Source: Bacteroidaceae bacterium (GTDB lineage Bacteria > Bacteroidota > Bacteroidia > Bacteroidales > Bacteroidaceae). From it: DNA of 64,000 nt. The notes beneath the pieces are model-generated. The model was not told the DNA's origin and searched no databases. It was given only the letters and a program-made list of their open reading frames with translations. The stretch covers positions 1 through 64,000 of the forward strand of contig JAFRQD010000063.1 in assembly GCA_017428785.1 (NCBI GenBank), read 5' to 3'. Each line of letters opens with the position of its first letter. Within the stretch, counting starts at the first letter, position 1. Positions 2,589 to 36,178 of this stretch are shown piece by piece. The translations under genes and the position numbers were made by a program.

Positions 2589-3716
2589 ATGACCGAGATG
2601 CAACATAAGGCTCTCCCCCAAAGGGGGAGCGGGGAGGGGGCCGAATTCTATATGCAGCGATGCCTGCAATTGGCGCGATGCGGAGAGGCCGGAGCTGCGC
2701 CCAATCCGATGGTTGGAGCCGTTGTGGTCTGCGACGGACGCATCATCGGCGAGGGCTTCCATCGACGCTGCGGAGGTCCGCATGCCGAGGTGAACGCCAT
2801 CGGCAGCGTCAAGGAAAGGCATCTCCTCAGCCGCAGCACCATTTATGTCAGCCTTGAGCCTTGCGCACACTACGGCAAGACGCCGCCCTGCGCCGACCTC
2901 ATCATCCAGAGTGGTATCAGGCGAGTCATTATTGGCTGCACCGACCCGTTTGCGAAGGTCAACGGCTTGGGCATCAGGAAGCTGCAGGAGGCAGGCTGCG
3001 AAGTGACGGTCGGAGTGCTCGAGGAGGAGTGCCGCGAACTGAACCGCCGCTTCTTTACTTTCCACGAGAAGCACAGACCGTGGATTACGCTGAAATGGGC
3101 GCAGAGCGAGGACAAGTATATAAGCCCCCTCCCCGCTCCCCCTTGGGGGGAGTGCCCAAGCTGCAAACCGGTTCGCTTCCAAAGCACTCCCCCCAAGGGG
3201 GAGCGGGGAGGGGGCTGTAGAGGGAGCGAAGAGGGAGCTATATTTTTCTCCAACGCCTTGACGCAGACGCTTGTGCATCGCCTGCGGGCTCGAAACCAGG
3301 CCATCCTCGTTGGCACAAGGACTGCGCTTGCGGACAATCCGACGCTCACAACAAGGCTTTGGGACGGGCCGAATCCTTTGCGGCTGACCATCGACCGCCA
3401 CAACATTCTTCCCCCTACCCTTCACCTGAAAGACGGTAGTACGCCGACAGTCATCTACACGCACGAAACGCTGCAGGAGATACTCGAGGACCTGTATAAT
3501 CGGGGCATTCAGACGCTGCTCGTCGAAGGCGGTTCGCAGCTGCTGCAAAGCTTCATCGATGCGGGCCTTTGGGACGAGGCACGCATCGAGACGGCTCCTT
3601 TCTGTCTGGGCGACGGCGTGAAAGCTCCTGTTCTGGCAGCAGGAGAACTGGCGAGCAAGGTTTGTTACTTCGGAAACGAAGTGAAAACGATAAAAAATCT
3701 TTACAAAAAATTGTAA
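2589..3716 (+). CDS. ribD: Bifunctional riboflavin deaminase/reductase RibD
   Basis: The 375-residue protein catalyses the deamination and side-chain reduction steps of riboflavin synthesis. The deaminase half has HAE (65-67) and the zinc motif PC...PPC (91-101); the reductase half has GTRTALADNP and LLVEGGSQLL near the C-terminus. Residues about 8-18 are encoded by a solo GC palindrome and about 178-209 by a paired 33-bp inverted repeat, placed where the reductase normally has its conserved SxDG loop, which is missing here. An in-frame ATG at 2652 (YMQRCLQLAR) would exclude the N-terminal palindrome and may be the true start. The last codons overlap the end of a non-coding composite repeat. 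Confidence 0.9.
   Translation: MTEMQHKALPQRGSGEGAEFYMQRCLQLARCGEAGAAPNPMVGAVVVCDGRIIGEGFHRRCGGPHAEVNAIGSVKERHLLSRSTIYVSLEPCAHYGKTPPCADLIIQSGIRRVIIGCTDPFAKVNGLGIRKLQEAGCEVTVGVLEEECRELNRRFFTFHEKHRPWITLKWAQSEDKYISPLPAPPWGECPSCKPVRFQSTPPKGERGGGCRGSEEGAIFFSNALTQTLVHRLRARNQAILVGTRTALADNPTLTTRLWDGPNPLRLTIDRHNILPPTLHLKDGSTPTVIYTHETLQEILEDLYNRGIQTLLVEGGSQLLQSFIDAGLWDEARIETAPFCLGDGVKAPVLAAGELASKVCYFGNEVKTIKNLYKKL
2609..2642. repeat. Solo GC palindrome at the ribD 5' end
   Basis: A single arm of the palindrome family: a CTCCCCCAAAGGGGGAG core followed by CGGGGAGGGGG. It is read in frame if translation starts at 2589, and is untranslated if it starts at 2652. Confidence 0.75.
3123..3216. repeat. Paired palindromic element inside ribD
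   Basis: Arms at 3123-3155 and 3184-3216 are a perfect 33-bp inverted repeat around a 28-nt spacer. Each arm contains a smaller palindrome (CTCCCCC...GGGGGAG). The whole 94-bp unit is read in frame in the reductase half of RibD. Its relative lies in the ketosynthase gene at 41972-42080. Confidence 0.92.
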
Positions 3717-4047
3717 CATTTCAGGGTGCGTCAGGTGTTCCGGCACAGGGCGATGACAAACGCCGCACGCGATGTTTGCCAACGCCGCACGTTAAGTTTG
3801 CAATTACCCCACGCGGCGTTCACCAATTCCGCAGGCGGATTTTCCCCAAAAAGCATGCGCCATTTAGCGCCGCAGCACAAGAAACTTATACTCTCTTAAC
3901 CCAGCGTCTCAAAACGAGGTTTTGTAAACATCTGACTATCAGGTGCGACTTGATTTAAGCGCATTTCTCGCGTCCGGTGGCCTCAAGTGCCACAAGACAA
4001 AAAACAAGCTCTCAAAAGCGAACTGATTGAGAAAAATCTTTACATTT
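3696..4047 (-). repeat. Composite interspersed element, copy 1 (inverted)
   Basis: Fills most of the gap between ribD and the DUF6242 gene. Reading the minus strand: a conserved block (4047-3951) containing GATTTAAGC and a CAAGTGCC/GACAAAAA segment in plus-strand reading, a spacer of about 107 nt, an array of 22-bp units (3843-3756), and a T-rich end whose complement (near 3696-3712) resembles TTTTTTGTAAAGATTTTT. Copies 2 and 3 at 13.8 and 20.6 kb have the same order in the opposite orientation. No coding frame is convincing. Confidence 0.65.
3756..3843. repeat. 22-bp tandem array A (4 units)
   Basis: Direct units at 3756, 3778, 3800 and 3822, each 22 bp, share a core like GCCGCACG or CACGCGGCG and a TTTGCAA-type spacer. 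A degenerate fifth unit may follow to 3865. There are no unique spacers, so it is not a CRISPR array. Confidence 0.75.
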
Positions 4048-13685: not shown

Positions 13686-13805
13686 ACCAATATCCCCTCC
13701 CATCCCTTGAAGGGGAAAGGCGGAGCGCATTGTCCCAACTCCTCTCCCATTCCCTTGAAAGAGAGGGGCGGAGAACATCATCCCTACTCCCCTCTGCAGA
13801 GGAAA
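13686..13805. repeat. Degenerate GC palindrome cluster
   Basis: Two related units (CCCATCCCTTGAAGGGGAAAGG and CCCATTCCCTTGAAAGAGAGGGG, each shortened here to its core) and a third weaker CCCCTCTGCAGAGG unit lie downstream of the GtrA gene. They belong to the same palindrome family as those in ribD. Confidence 0.55.
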
Positions 13806-13822: not shown

Positions 13823-14190
13823 TTTTTGTAAACATTTCTTCCAAGCAGAGGCTCACAGACGGCTTATTTTTGTCCCTGCGGCACTTTTGTACCCCAAACG
13901 CAAAATAAGGGCTTAAATCGCATTTTCGCTGAAAACCAGAAAGTTTCAAAGCCATATTTTCAGACACGAGGCAAAGAAAGTATAGATGTCTTGCAGAAAG
14001 GCATCAAATGCCGCACACTTTAAGGCCAAATGCCGCATGGAGTGTTGGCGAACTTAGCGTGGGGTAATTGCAAATGTCGCGTGCGGCGTTCACGATTTCC
14101 GCGTGCGGCGTTTGGTTTCTCCCCTTGCCGCGTCACAAAACGTCCCGTTTTCAGGTATATTTTTTGTCCTGTTTTTTCCCAAAGTTATTT
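13823..14190 (+). repeat. Composite interspersed element, copy 2
   Basis: A conserved block at 13823-13927 (TTTTTGTAAAC, GGCACTTTTGTACCC, GGGCTTAAATCGC) is followed by about 80 nt, including GAGGCAAAGAAAGTA near 13969-13983, then a 22-bp array and a T-rich end. Copies 1 and 3 share the block, the order and the array. The rest of the gap, to 14396, is AT-rich with only a weak 24-codon frame at 14326-14400. Confidence 0.7.
14008..14117. repeat. 22-bp tandem array B (5 units)
   Basis: Direct units start at 14008, 14030, 14052, 14074 and 14096, each exactly 22 bp. The last two carry the CGCGTGCGGCGTT core also seen at 34.4 kb. Confidence 0.78.
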
Positions 14191-20607: not shown

Positions 20608-20645
20608 AATTTTTCCCCTTTCATTTTTTATTTTTAATTTTTAAT
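20608..20645. repeat. AT-rich short tandem array
   Basis: TTTTTAAT-type units next to the start of composite element copy 3. Confidence 0.5.
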
Positions 20646-21030
20646 TTTGTAAACTTTCTTTCCGGGCGGACGCTTTCTGGCGCATTATTTTTTTCTCGGT
20701 GGCACTTTCCTACCCTAAAGGCAAAATATGGGCTTAAATCGCGTTTTCCTTTATGGATGGTGGTTTGCGAGGTGGCTTTTTGACGAGACAAGCAAAGAAA
20801 GTACAACTGTCACGCATTAAATTGCAAAACGGAGCATGTTTTCGGGCCGATTTCCTTGTAGAGCGTTTGGCAACTCCACAGGGGACGATTGCAAACTTCG
20901 CGTGTTAAGTTGGCAAACTTCACGTGTTAAGTTGACAAAGTTGACGTGTGGCGTTTGGAATCTTCTCATGTGGAGTTCCCGTTTGTCTCGTTTGGCGGTC
21001 GGTTTTTTGTAAAGGATTTTTCACTTCTTT
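20646..21030 (+). repeat. Composite interspersed element, copy 3
   Basis: The block at 20646-20747 (TTTTGTAAAC, GGCACTTTCCTACCC, GGGCTTAAATCGC) is followed by about 119 nt, including AAGCAAAGAAAGTA near 20790, then a 22-bp array and TTTTTTGTAAAGGATTTTT near 21003-21022. Together with the palindrome cluster before it, this fills the 958-bp gap between the acyltransferase and the leucine-rich-repeat gene. No convincing coding frame is seen. Confidence 0.7.
20867..20976. repeat. 22-bp tandem array C (5 units)
   Basis: Direct units at 20867, 20889, 20911, 20933 and 20955; the middle ones read CGCGTGTTAAGT / CACGTGTTAAGT with a GGCAAACTT spacer. Confidence 0.78.
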
Positions 21031-21110
21031 TTCTGTTGACAAACGATAACCTCAGGCAAAGAAAGTGTTTTTTTTTACTTATAGTCTTTCTTTTTTCATG
21101 GAAAAAATCG

Positions 21111-21118
21111 TAACTTTG
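21111..21118 (+). promoter_or_regulatory. -7 box for the leucine-rich-repeat gene
   Basis: TAACTTTG, 43 bp before the chosen ATG. It lies about 90 bp downstream of the end of composite element copy 3. Confidence 0.65.
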
Positions 21119-21160
21119 TGGCGGAAACATGTGCTAATGAACTCAAAAAACTCAAATATT

Positions 21161-24133
21161 ATGAAAAAACTATTACTCCTCAACTTGCTCCTTGCAATGA
21201 TCTTTGGAGCAACAAGTCTTAGGGCTGCTGAAGGCGATGTGGTCTTTAACTCCACCAACTTCCCTGATGATGCGTTCCGTCAGTATCTTTATCAAGAGTT
21301 TTACTTCTATGAGGGCGAAACCCTTACTCAAAAGGACCTTGACAAAGTTAGGTCACTTTATCTAACAGATAAGGGCATTTCTTCGCTCAAGGGTGTTGAA
21401 TATTTCAAACAACTACGATGGTTGTATTGCAGCTACAATAACCTTACGACTTTAGATCTTTCCCAGAATCATGCAATAGTAACTCTGAATTGTAGTTACA
21501 ACAAGCTAAAAAACTTGATTTTTTCAAGTACCCCACATGACATAGGAGAAGAAAAACATCTAAATTGCTCCCACAATAACCTTACTTCGCTTGAAGTTCC
21601 AATCTACGCAGATTATGGAACCATTTTGAATTGTAGCCATAACAACTTAACTTCACTAAAGATTTTTCAAACACGCGAGAATAATGCTGATTATTTAGCA
21701 GTAAATTGTTCCTACAATAATCTTTCGTCGTTGAATTTGGGAAACGCCCTAAATCCTTATGTGTGGAGTGTAGAATGTAGTCATAATAACATTACCCAGT
21801 TGGAAGATTTGTGGCGCTGGACTTTCCTTAGGAAGTTGGACTGCTCTTACAACAAACTGAATGGCAACCTTCCTTTGGCTGCAGGCCTTACCTCGCTCGA
21901 GGACTTGAATTGTGGCGGTAACGACTTCACATATATTAATCTGCAATACCTGACCGGCCTTAAGCGCTTTACGATGACCGACAGCAAGGTCACATCGCTC
22001 GACCTTTCCAATAACACCGAACTGCATTACCTGAAGCTGAACTACAGTAAATTCGACGAGTTAAGGCTCTTGAAAAATACAGAGCTTGATACGGTTATCG
22101 TCAACCATTGCGACCTAAACAAGTTGCTTTTCACGAGCGCGGCAACAAACTTGATGCATCTGGAATGCAAATACAACTCGCTGACGTCGCTTTGGCTATA
22201 CGACCAGCCCAACATGAAGTATCTCGATTGTTCACACAACAAACTGACGACATTGAATTATAACTCAATGCCCCAATTGGAAACTTTCGATTGCTCCTAC
22301 AATGAGTTTGACTTCCTCGACATCGCGAAACTCACAAACTTGAAACAGTTCTATGCTCATCACAACAAACTCATATCGATTGCAGGCGTTGAATATGTAG
22401 ATGGGCCGACTTGGATAAACTATGATGCCAATGCCTTCACTCCACAGGAACCGACGACCCGTCGCTTCGAGCGTATTGACTATAATGGTGGCAAAGCTTG
22501 GGCACTTTATCTTGGCACAAGTGATGCAAGCCGCATCTTGAACTACAAGACGGACGATGTTTCAGCAACTCCTGTTCTCTATAAAAAGTACTTAATCATT
22601 TCCGAAGACTTGAGCCAAATCCCCAGTAAAGTGGAATACGACTTCAAGCCTTTTGCCACAAAGAATGCCTTCAATGTGGTCGTGAACTATGATGTGAAGA
22701 ACTACAACATCTTGATTGACGGCAAGCAGATGACTTCGCTCAACTTCTTTGACATTCCCGGACTGGTGAGCGGCAAGGCATACTTTGAAGACAAGCCCGA
22801 AGGCCTCGGCTGGGCAGGTGAGCCGACACTTGTCCTTGATAATGCAGCCCTTGAGTGGGACGGGACTAATTATGGCATCTATAATAATAACAACTATTAT
22901 TTCACCATCAAAGTCATTGGTGACTGCTCTATAACAAATAAGGAACTTGCCGCGCTTGAACTTGACGCCGTTACCAGTACAACGATAGAAGGCGGAGGAA
23001 CACTAAACATTACCTCTGAAGAATATTGTGCTATTAGAACTTGGGCTGTTACTAAGCTAAATATACAAGACAATACAAAGGTAATAGCACGAAGCCTTAA
23101 CTATAATTATGGTTATTACGACGAAGATGGGGCCAATTTAGAAATCAAAGATGGAGCTATGTTCGCAGTTAAAAGTAAGTATGCACCGCTCTCTCTCGAC
23201 AGGAACTTACCCGTCTTTGGCGAAGGCATCGACATCCGTTATCCAGAAGGTGCTTATTTTGGCGATTACAATAATCTTTATTATGCTGACGGCACAAAAG
23301 TACAAAACGATTGGGCTATCATCGGACCTAGCAGTCTTAAAGAAAGCCTCGGCTTCAGTATCAACGGCAAGATAATGACCCGAATGGATGCGCATGATTT
23401 GCTGGATGATGTGCCGGGAGTGGTAAGCGGAGAAGCCTATATCGAAGTAGATAAATACCACATACCGACACTCGTACTTGATAATGCCACATTGGAGTTG
23501 GAAGCAATTTTGGGCATGAATTATTACGGCGCGACCCACTGGAATTATATCAAAGTCTTGGGCGACTGTACGATTAAGAATCCCAATGGCGTTGTTTTTG
23601 TGCTGAATCCTAACACACTAACCTCCATAGAAGGCGGAGGAACCCTCAACGTCTTTTCCGAAACACTTGCTCCCATCGGGTCGAATAATTCTCGTCTTAA
23701 GATAGAAGACAACACGACTATAATAGCAGAGAGCAAAAAAGCGGATGTTGCCCTTTGGTGTCAAGACGGTGCAAAATTAGAAATCACGAATGGAGGCGCG
23801 ATTGCCGCACACAGCAAGTCCAATCCAATTCTCGTGTTAGATAGCGAGTTCATCTTGGGCGAAGGTACCGCTTTGCGCTATCCTTTAGGGGCTTATATAG
23901 GAAGCGATAACATTATCTATAATGCTGACGACACAATAGTGGAAGACGATTGGATTGTCATCGGTCCGGATAATGAGAAGACAAAGGATTTGATAACAGG
24001 AGTCCACGAGATTGACAACAGTCAACAGACAACAGACAACGGATTTATCTATAATATAGCCGGTCAGCAAATGTCAAATGGCAAATTGCCTCGTGGCATC
24101 TACATCCAGAACGGCAAGAAAGTTTTAAGATAA
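21161..24133 (+). CDS. Leucine-rich-repeat surface protein with type IX-like tail
   Basis: A 990-residue protein with a signal peptide (LLLLNLLLAMIFGATSLRA). Residues about 60-440 hold roughly 16 leucine-rich repeats of the form LxxLxCSxNxLTxL. Two related beta-rich modules follow (about 520-720 and 730-930), each with a PTLVLDNA strand, an IEGGGTLN turn and a RYPLGAYIG-type end. The C-terminus (YNIAGQQM...RGIYIQNGKKVLR) matches the sorting tail of type IX-secreted or cell-surface proteins in Prevotella-like bacteria. A heptamer array (24013-24042) encodes the linker before that tail. It is by eye AT-richer than its neighbours and lies between genes that are adjacent elsewhere, so lateral gain is likely. 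The ATG at 21161 starts the signal peptide. Confidence 0.85.
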   Translation: MKKLLLLNLLLAMIFGATSLRAAEGDVVFNSTNFPDDAFRQYLYQEFYFYEGETLTQKDLDKVRSLYLTDKGISSLKGVEYFKQLRWLYCSYNNLTTLDLSQNHAIVTLNCSYNKLKNLIFSSTPHDIGEEKHLNCSHNNLTSLEVPIYADYGTILNCSHNNLTSLKIFQTRENNADYLAVNCSYNNLSSLNLGNALNPYVWSVECSHNNITQLEDLWRWTFLRKLDCSYNKLNGNLPLAAGLTSLEDLNCGGNDFTYINLQYLTGLKRFTMTDSKVTSLDLSNNTELHYLKLNYSKFDELRLLKNTELDTVIVNHCDLNKLLFTSAATNLMHLECKYNSLTSLWLYDQPNMKYLDCSHNKLTTLNYNSMPQLETFDCSYNEFDFLDIAKLTNLKQFYAHHNKLISIAGVEYVDGPTWINYDANAFTPQEPTTRRFERIDYNGGKAWALYLGTSDASRILNYKTDDVSATPVLYKKYLIISEDLSQIPSKVEYDFKPFATKNAFNVVVNYDVKNYNILIDGKQMTSLNFFDIPGLVSGKAYFEDKPEGLGWAGEPTLVLDNAALEWDGTNYGIYNNNNYYFTIKVIGDCSITNKELAALELDAVTSTTIEGGGTLNITSEEYCAIRTWAVTKLNIQDNTKVIARSLNYNYGYYDEDGANLEIKDGAMFAVKSKYAPLSLDRNLPVFGEGIDIRYPEGAYFGDYNNLYYADGTKVQNDWAIIGPSSLKESLGFSINGKIMTRMDAHDLLDDVPGVVSGEAYIEVDKYHIPTLVLDNATLELEAILGMNYYGATHWNYIKVLGDCTIKNPNGVVFVLNPNTLTSIEGGGTLNVFSETLAPIGSNNSRLKIEDNTTIIAESKKADVALWCQDGAKLEITNGGAIAAHSKSNPILVLDSEFILGEGTALRYPLGAYIGSDNIIYNADDTIVEDDWIVIGPDNEKTKDLITGVHEIDNSQQTTDNGFIYNIAGQQMSNGKLPRGIYIQNGKKVLR
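24013..24042. repeat. Heptanucleotide array before the C-terminal tail
   Basis: ACAACAG-type units with period 7 are read in frame as NSQQTTDNG, a flexible linker. Confidence 0.75.
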
Positions 24134-34314: not shown

Positions 34315-34444
34315 GCGTTTATTTTTGAGACGGCAAAGAAGAAGCGAGAAAAATTATCACAGCCAGGAGCCATTTTTTTGTTACATGTTAATTTCCTGGT
34401 ATATACAAGGGAACCAAGAATAGCACGAGGGGAATGAAAAAACG

Positions 34445-34532
34445 CCGCGTGCGGCGATGGCAAATTCCGCGTGCGGCGATGGGCAATTCCGCGTGCGGCG
34501 ATGGGCAATTCCGCGTGCGGCGTTTGAAGGCC
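34445..34532. repeat. 22-bp tandem array D (4 units)
   Basis: Units at 34445, 34467, 34489 and 34511 are almost identical (CCGCGTGCGGCGATGG core, then GCAATT). It is the least degenerate 22-bp array in the window and lies about 190 bp upstream of the first ketosynthase promoter. Confidence 0.88.
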
Positions 34533-34720
34533 TCCCTAAGGAGTGAAATAATCCCCTCATTCCACGCACTTCACCAGCCCTACCTCGTGCATCGCTTCTC
34601 GCCCTCCACTTCACGAATAGGTGGGGAGGCATATCGTGTTCCTTGCCTCTTGTTAGCACATTTTTTTGCAAAAAATTTCATTAAAAAGTGGCTTTTTGTT
34701 TGAAATTCGGCTTAGGTTGC

Positions 34721-36068: not shown

Positions 36069-36178
36069 ACATGCGTCGATGTCAAATAATCCACGTGTGA
36101 ATTTCAAACTATCCACGCGAGGATTTTCAACTATCCACGTGTGGATTTCAAACTATCCACACGAGGATGGAGTTAAAG
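36069..36178. repeat. 22-bp tandem array E (about 5 units)
   Basis: Units at 36069 (degenerate), 36091, 36113, 36135 and 36157 carry a CCACGTGTGG-type palindromic core and a TTTCAAACTAT spacer. It lies in the 429-bp gap between the first ketosynthase and the next gene, about 165 bp upstream of that gene's promoter. The rest of the gap is otherwise unremarkable. Confidence 0.85.

Follow-up and report, generated by a model that had tools for sequence, protein, structure and literature searches.

BOX elements of the pneumococcus are modular composites (end, array, end) with many intergenic copies and a variable number of boxB units, and the palindromes of the REP/BIME sequences associated with RAYT carry a GTAG or CGTC tag. 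Satellite DNA of eukaryotes evolves in concert: its period is kept and the family is homogenized while the sequence turns over between species. Intrinsic terminators, located near stop codons, consist of a hairpin with A-run and T-run flanks; ordinary terminators are not known to share a genome-wide repeated unit or a 22-bp internal period. The Bacteroidales include Porphyromonas gingivalis, the host of the BrickBuilt MITE. In the parts of its published description available to us, BrickBuilt has 19 dispersed intergenic copies in strain ATCC 33277, each composed of a leader, a short tandem array and a tail without internal transposase; the 23-nt unit AGAYCATARTATCCTCTCRTRTG is present in 1–22.8 copies and the inverted ends are IS5-like (GAGACCTTTGCA), and direct repeats of 22 nt had been reported earlier in strain W83 (PMC4596501).

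We analyzed a stretch of 64,000 nucleotides (the window) from a Bacteroidaceae genome (G000, the source genome: 2.98 Mb in 71 contigs, 84% complete, 2.8% contaminated). The source genome is probably a member of an uncultured rumen Bacteroidaceae lineage, its closest MeaB loci (98% protein identity) being those of a yak-reticulum and a RUG MAG. A preliminary description had reported a composite element in three gaps of the window, in both orientations, and had given the same order of parts for each. Both points held: with profile scores that round to 308, 279 and 277 bits, the three copies are all members of one family, termed class A here. The reference copy is located at positions 13824..14178 of the forward strand (nhmmer 307.6 bits; model R1 254 bits), the second at 3692..4045 of the reverse strand (278.9 bits) and the third at 20645..21021 of the forward strand (276.6 bits; 22-bp period by TRF). 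The second copy, which has a match-site copy in congener G034, overlaps with its right end the stop region of the RibD ORF 2589-3716 (Pfam RibD). The third, 377 bp in length and hence about one 22-bp unit longer, lies upstream of the ORF 21065-24133, which encodes an LRR protein (Pfam LRR).

Each copy is read as left end, block GGCACTTT..TACCC..GGGCTTAAATCGC, GCAAAGAAAGTA, 22-bp array and T-rich end. The parts of the reference copy were located on the forward strand, partly by means of an alignment of 30 class A copies read with their flanks (alignment A1). The left end (TTTTTGTAAACATTTCTTC, the direct-repeat end motif) was read in the sequence at 13823..13841; the conserved block GGCACTTTTGTACCCC..GGGCTTAAATCGC, at 13880..13921, corresponds to near-invariant columns of alignment A1, which also shows the conserved motif GGCAAAGAAAGTATA at 13970..13984 and the array module at 14030..14124, whose units were read in the sequence. 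The right end (TTTTTTGTCCTGTTTTTTCC), likewise located by sequence reading, spans 14160..14179 in direct orientation relative to the left end. The earlier view that the whole is one unit was right as to the composite, but the array is a module that also exists alone, and the T-rich right end is a direct, not an inverted, repeat of the left end (TTTTGTAAAnATTTTT). Its non-coding character is supported by the aligned copies: whichever frame is considered, it is open in at most four of 30, and protein coding was therefore rejected. A CRISPR was discarded as well, as the array units are contiguous rather than split by unique spacers. Directly before the reference copy, window positions 13693-13794 contain a 48-bp repeat in two copies, and similar text is found at 20.5 kb. 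Other short dispersed repeats (CCGGACAGCAAT and GTCCGGTAAAAATATTTCATCATC-like) adjoin class A in the left flanks of L013, L018 and L024 and in the right flanks of L003 and L026.

A profile or covariance search of the complete genome had been suggested earlier. Used as a DNA query against the source genome, the 13.8-kb copy gave at least 44 matches, of which 40 reached E <= 3.2e-16 (best 40 of 242 candidates). The sequence-only covariance model R1 listed 50 near-full-length copies of 150-285 bits, far beyond chance, the next match being of 104 bits (best 150 of 1108 candidates). Measurements were performed on 49 of these 50 copies, L123 being excluded because its profile match was split. Mean pairwise identity among them is 63.9%; their length in the profile frame is 356-358 bp in 42 copies and 378-379 bp, one 22-bp step longer, in five, while two deviate. 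Full-length copies from congeners measure 356-358 bp in 24 of 29 cases, with one of 379 bp and four of 336-347 bp. The end motif TTTTGTAAANATTTTT, allowing at most one mismatch, has 55 matches in the source genome and none for the reversed control; by reading, 50 of the matches are class A ends, three are ends of another container (class D) and two lie beside other arrays. No longer or parent element with class A ends was seen among these 55 matches in the 84% complete source genome. Class A exists in many copies, ends in direct repeats, keeps almost constant distances between its parts and carries its array at one set position. Both class A and the arrays occur in every intergenic orientation, and the gene contexts of class A are mixed.

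The 49 full-length copies measured in the source genome compare with 7, 8 and 13 among the fetched loci of three congeners. As the element is multi-copy and more numerous in the source genome than in congeners, some copying of class A has occurred. The third window copy and L122 are 91.6% identical and have flank sequence in common on one side; they may therefore represent a segmental duplication. Like BOX, class A is a modular end-array-end composite in many intergenic copies; unlike BOX, with its variable boxB number, it shows unit replacement across species, which is not known for BOX. As far as the accessible parts of the BrickBuilt description go, class A shares with that element its occurrence in the Bacteroidales, the leader/array/tail layout and the dispersed intergenic copies, but the unit is of 22 bp rather than 23 nt, has another sequence and is usually present four times when the array is naked, and the ends are the direct repeat TTTTGTAAAnATTTTT rather than the IS5-like terminal inverted repeat GAGACCTTTGCA. 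Terminal inverted repeats as in a MITE are not found in class A.

The array also occurs alone (naked arrays, class C) and in at least two further containers. Within the window, a naked array with four CCGCGTGCGG cores at 22 bp spans 34429..34538 of the forward strand (TRF, alignment A2, lag scan), and a 22-bp array with a different core (TCCACGTGTGGA) spans 36070..36173 of the same strand (TRF, sequence, lag scan). A core-pattern search of the sequence stretches examined yielded 37 distinct naked arrays. Of these, 31 have four CCGCNNGCGG cores exactly in phase and align gap-free over 145 columns with all four cores invariant (alignment A2); of the remaining six, by reading, two have a single changed core, three contain five units and one shows a step of 21 bp. 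The listing for model R2 gave 150 strand-hits, which by our own count correspond to about 80 loci, a lower bound (best 150 of 1046 candidates), most arrays being listed twice because they are nearly palindromic. The class B container, of about 400 bp (L131-L138, L140, L141, L143 and L144 of G000), carries the same 22-bp array after a GAGAATCGCTTAAAA block, and the class D container (L156, L157 and L159, contigs C9 and C49 of G000) is bounded on one side by TTTTGTAAAGATTTTGG and, in two of the three loci, on the other side by the inverted form of this sequence; it also contains a CTCTGAGAAT..ATTCTCAGAG inverted repeat. The ends of class B are TTGACAnnnTG..AGC..TTTTGCTTACA-like units that look like paired half-sites with a short spacer. 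Contig C63 (98.9 kb) contains six class A copies and none of the 150 listed naked-array matches, and contig C62 (90.1 kb) eleven listed naked arrays and no class A.

Related genomes, which the preliminary description had also proposed to search, do carry the element: R1 has matches in 10 of the 36 congeners searched and in none of the 24 genomes from other families of this order (best 25 candidates per genome). We compared 41 congener loci, 40 of them fetched for R1 matches, plus L032. Fourteen match one of seven source-genome class A sites by both flanks and in the same orientation, loci matched by one flank alone (e.g., L126, L023) being excluded from this count; among the 14, L193 has a right flank that is closer by about 1 kb, and in L189 the match covers a part of the model only. 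At the reference site (13824-14178), L031/G035, L032 and G005 have a copy, and L033 and L034 have none; in these two the gap is too diverged for placing an exact boundary. In the 13 matching-site pairs measured, flank DNA is 69-92% identical and the elements 51-68%, overall slightly above random pairs from the same genomes (means 52-55%), with one pair below; for L124 and L183 the flanks reach 89 and 92% and the element 67.6%. No set distance separates the element from the alignable flank (7 vs 469, 1 vs 506 and 20 vs 153 bp). Seven class A sites and many array sites have a counterpart at a matching intergenic position in congeners, and the array sites appear to be inherited in place.

The positions of the arrays are largely shared between species, but their letters mostly are not. 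Pairs of CCGCNNGCGG at 22 bp number 394 in the source genome and 0-2 in any of the 24 congeners searched, and 16 genomes from other genera have none. We located the counterpart of an 11-kb segment, which holds three naked arrays, in seven congeners and read the gaps corresponding to its arrays; this gave 20 regions (site 2 of G035 coincides with a contig break and is outside these). Lag 22 was the best of lags 15-40 in 16 of the 20: in 11 regions the match was 0.75 or higher, and in five it was weak, at 0.52-0.65, where other lags reach 0.58. The other four comprise one region with lag 21 and three with no lag. In a random control, lag 22 came top with such a match in 5 of 2000 420-bp pieces of MeaB loci. 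The units read at these orthologous gaps include AACGTGTTACGTTTGCAAAGTT in G008, AAGAGCGTGCCTTTATTGCAAT in G020, GGCGTGCCGCATTGGCAAAGAT in G034, CCCCTATAGGGCGTTGGTCATT in G005 and CGTGAGTCAAAGGCCAACGGCT in G013. At site 3 of G013 (L247), a lag-21 array (TTTTCAAACTTTGAAAATATA-like) is found where other species show lag 22. The reverse test, performed on contig C17 and limited to congener arrays with anchors within 1.5 kb, showed that 21 of 24 two-side-anchored congener arrays fall at a source-genome array; without the two repeats from overlapping stretches, this was the case for 19 of 22 distinct arrays, roughly half of which belong to the same three sites.

The period was also examined more widely. 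In stretches from eleven genomes, some of them chosen for holding arrays and with low-complexity arrays excluded, 54 of the 61 arrays with lags 15-60 have lag 22 and none has lag 21 or 23; outside G000 the count is 31 of 35, one array being counted twice. In 80 MeaB loci unselected for arrays, scanned without low-complexity filter, lag 22 was found in seven (one of them really of period 11), lag 14 in seven and lag 21 in four. Xylanibacter brevis ATCC 19188 has its own 22-bp family, with 12 exact pairs at 22 bp that are absent from six other genomes, and no arrays were seen by lag scan in 80 kb of X. ruminicola and 40 kb of X. rarus. From species to species the unit sequence changes and the 22-bp period stays, and within a genome one or few unit types are used repeatedly. 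In keeping a period while the sequence turns over, the arrays resemble satellite DNA; they differ from it in being short and placed at many dispersed bacterial intergenic sites. They also recall REP/BIME with RAYT, as presented in the accessible parts of PMC3733652, in forming families of many intergenic copies of short palindromes, and depart from it in their exact 22-bp tandem phase and in positions that are kept between species while the units change.

Unit sequences of class A and of naked arrays tend to go together. By reading, the cores of class A arrays are CCGCGTGCGG in L032, CACGTG in G035, GCAATATATTGC in G034 and, in G005, CCCTATAGGG or CGACGTGTCG, among others. In three of the four genomes read for both (G000, G035 and G005), naked arrays carry the class A core too; in G034, it was not seen among the naked arrays read. 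A core part GTTAAG, like the unit of G008, is kept in five of the 49 source-genome class A copies, including the third window copy, and the site-2 array of G005 is a mix of two unit types, one of them like that of G034. By eye, most cores have a central CGTG/CACG, with CCCTATAGGG and GGTTAACC as clear exceptions, and many linkers a TTGNCAA-like piece. Mixed arrays and shared cores look like the outcome of gradual change and homogenization rather than of new insertions. We infer that unit sequences drift and spread among the sites of one genome by non-reciprocal copying, that is, by concerted evolution; no machinery for such between-site copying was found.

We next consider the genes beside the arrays, taken as codon-scored ORFs. 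For 37 of 48 genus arrays, a gene 3′ end is found at a distance of 60 bp or less, where uniform placement in the same gaps would give 23.5, and 10 of 60 genus arrays are without an identified gene 3′ end beside them. Among 64 genus arrays, AAAA is found on the left in 37 and TTTT in 6, and on the right TTTT in 33 and AAAA in 2. Genus arrays are nearer to gene 3′ ends than under random placement, and about half have a left A-run and a right T-run. RNA folding gave z below -3 in 55 of 74 arrays (mononucleotide shuffles), and z from -4.0 to -7.5 for five naked arrays of G000 (dinucleotide shuffles, DNA parameters); four of these five form one long interrupted hairpin of some 33-37 pairs and the fifth is branched. 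Because of this 3′-end proximity, the A-run/T-run flanks and the better-than-shuffle folding, the naked arrays of this genus are probably 3′-end hairpins or terminators. Many genus arrays, not all, resemble intrinsic terminators in the hairpin, the flanks and the proximity to stop codons; the arrays are unlike them in having a genome-wide repeated unit and a 22-bp internal period.

The combination of a stable hairpin and a T-run near a stop codon is present in many genus arrays, not in all, and not in X. brevis. There, none of nine arrays lies within 60 bp of a gene 3′ end (1.2 expected), and the A-run/T-run asymmetry was not seen. As the X. brevis arrays show no 3′-end proximity, our confidence in the main reading given below is slightly reduced and that in two of its rivals slightly raised. 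A universal palindromic unit is unsupported, the units being significantly self-complementary in 25 of 75 arrays (in G020, 0 of 4), and so is a terminator role of class A itself, whose gene contexts are mixed. Array ends pair about equally well with the ends of other arrays from the same genome, which, like the figure of 25 of 75, speaks against the hairpin reading.

The preliminary description had offered three readings of the element, namely a MITE-like passenger, a structured RNA and a chromosome-organization site, which found partial support and of which the last is the first rival of our own. According to it, the arrays would be nucleoid sites docking a fast-evolving DNA-binding protein, with the 22-bp phase presenting one helix face and the cores tracking the protein. 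This would suit the exact 22-bp phase across different units, the usual four units of naked arrays, the near-fixed spacing of class A in the absence of RNAalifold structure and the dispersed sites kept in place, in all intergenic orientations; class A and naked arrays also look unevenly spread over contigs, judging from counts of the listed matches. However, the 3′-end proximity and the A-run/T-run flanks in this genus fit transcript ends better, and no cognate protein was identified, so that we hold this explanation to be doubtful. It is very improbable that every class A copy gives rise to a structured non-coding RNA. The conserved blocks, the near-fixed length and local hairpins seen by eye speak for it, but RNAalifold predicts 13 pairs, located in the array, two of them with two-sided change and with a covariation term of -0.39 kcal/mol, and no Rfam match is found at the element; on these results, a whole-element structured RNA was rejected for class A.

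High site sharing (the 19 of 22 distinct arrays mentioned above) bears on a further alternative, in which each species would have acquired MITE- or REP-like mobile repeats independently at common hot spots, gene 3′ ends for instance. The multi-copy, clade-limited occurrence given by the R1 matches, the larger number of copies in the source genome than in congeners and the inverted ends in two of the three class D loci read speak for it. The sites common to congeners, the direct-repeat ends of class A, the end-motif matches, 50 of 55 of which are class A ends, no longer element bearing them having been seen, and the mixed arrays, which suggest change in place, all argue against mobility, and we consider it improbable. 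Mobilization by RAYT was rejected: unlike what the accessible REP/BIME literature describes, no linked RAYT was found, and the single Y1_Tnp match in the genome (L171) has palindromes beside it that are unrelated to the array family. This match (C56:71986-72324 of G000) adjoins CCCAGGGC..GCCCTGGG palindromes, a separate REP-like family.

The reading that we prefer, to which we give slightly less than an even chance, is that of sites inherited in place with units homogenized in each genome, naked arrays working as 3′-end hairpins and class A as a protein–DNA assembly. Class A, of about 355 bp, would be one container of a genus-wide intergenic array family with units locked at 22 bp. The array sites would stay in place by descent, in this genus often just after stop codons, and unit sequences would drift and then spread from site to site within a genome. 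Naked arrays would act as bidirectional 3′-end hairpins, as intrinsic terminators or mRNA ends, with two helical turns per unit. The class A array, together with the TTTTGTAAAGATTTTT ends and the AAAGAAAGTA motif, would form one protein–DNA assembly in which spacing matters more than sequence, a proposal based on its near-fixed spacing without RNA structure. Class A itself may have spread by rare copying, with help from another factor.

A broader reading, possible although not likely, is that at hundreds of fixed intergenic sites the 22-bp period is selected and the recognition sequence is rewritten genome-wide in concert in each species. This would be a bacterial counterpart of satellite concerted evolution, perhaps co-evolving with a fast-changing DNA- or RNA-binding factor, and class A would be the most elaborate docking form of this system, locked in its spacing. 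Repeats dispersed in bacterial genomes are commonly regarded as mobile or in decay; here, place and period persist for the most part and the letters do not, so that the kinship escapes sequence searches and a structural constraint comes into view. Only the BrickBuilt and REP papers came close in our literature search, in which nothing was found on position- and period-conserved arrays with replaced units, a weak negative with subscription papers poorly covered. The arrays raise the questions of how one bacterial genome homogenizes dispersed sites and of what requires exactly two helical turns per unit. The structural constraint can be tested in cultured relatives, among them X. brevis ATCC 19188 with its own 22-bp family. 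In X. brevis, two kinds of unit (CAATAGTGGCA.. and CAGGGGCTGGA-like) form 22-bp arrays that adjoin each other at L058:14433-14736.
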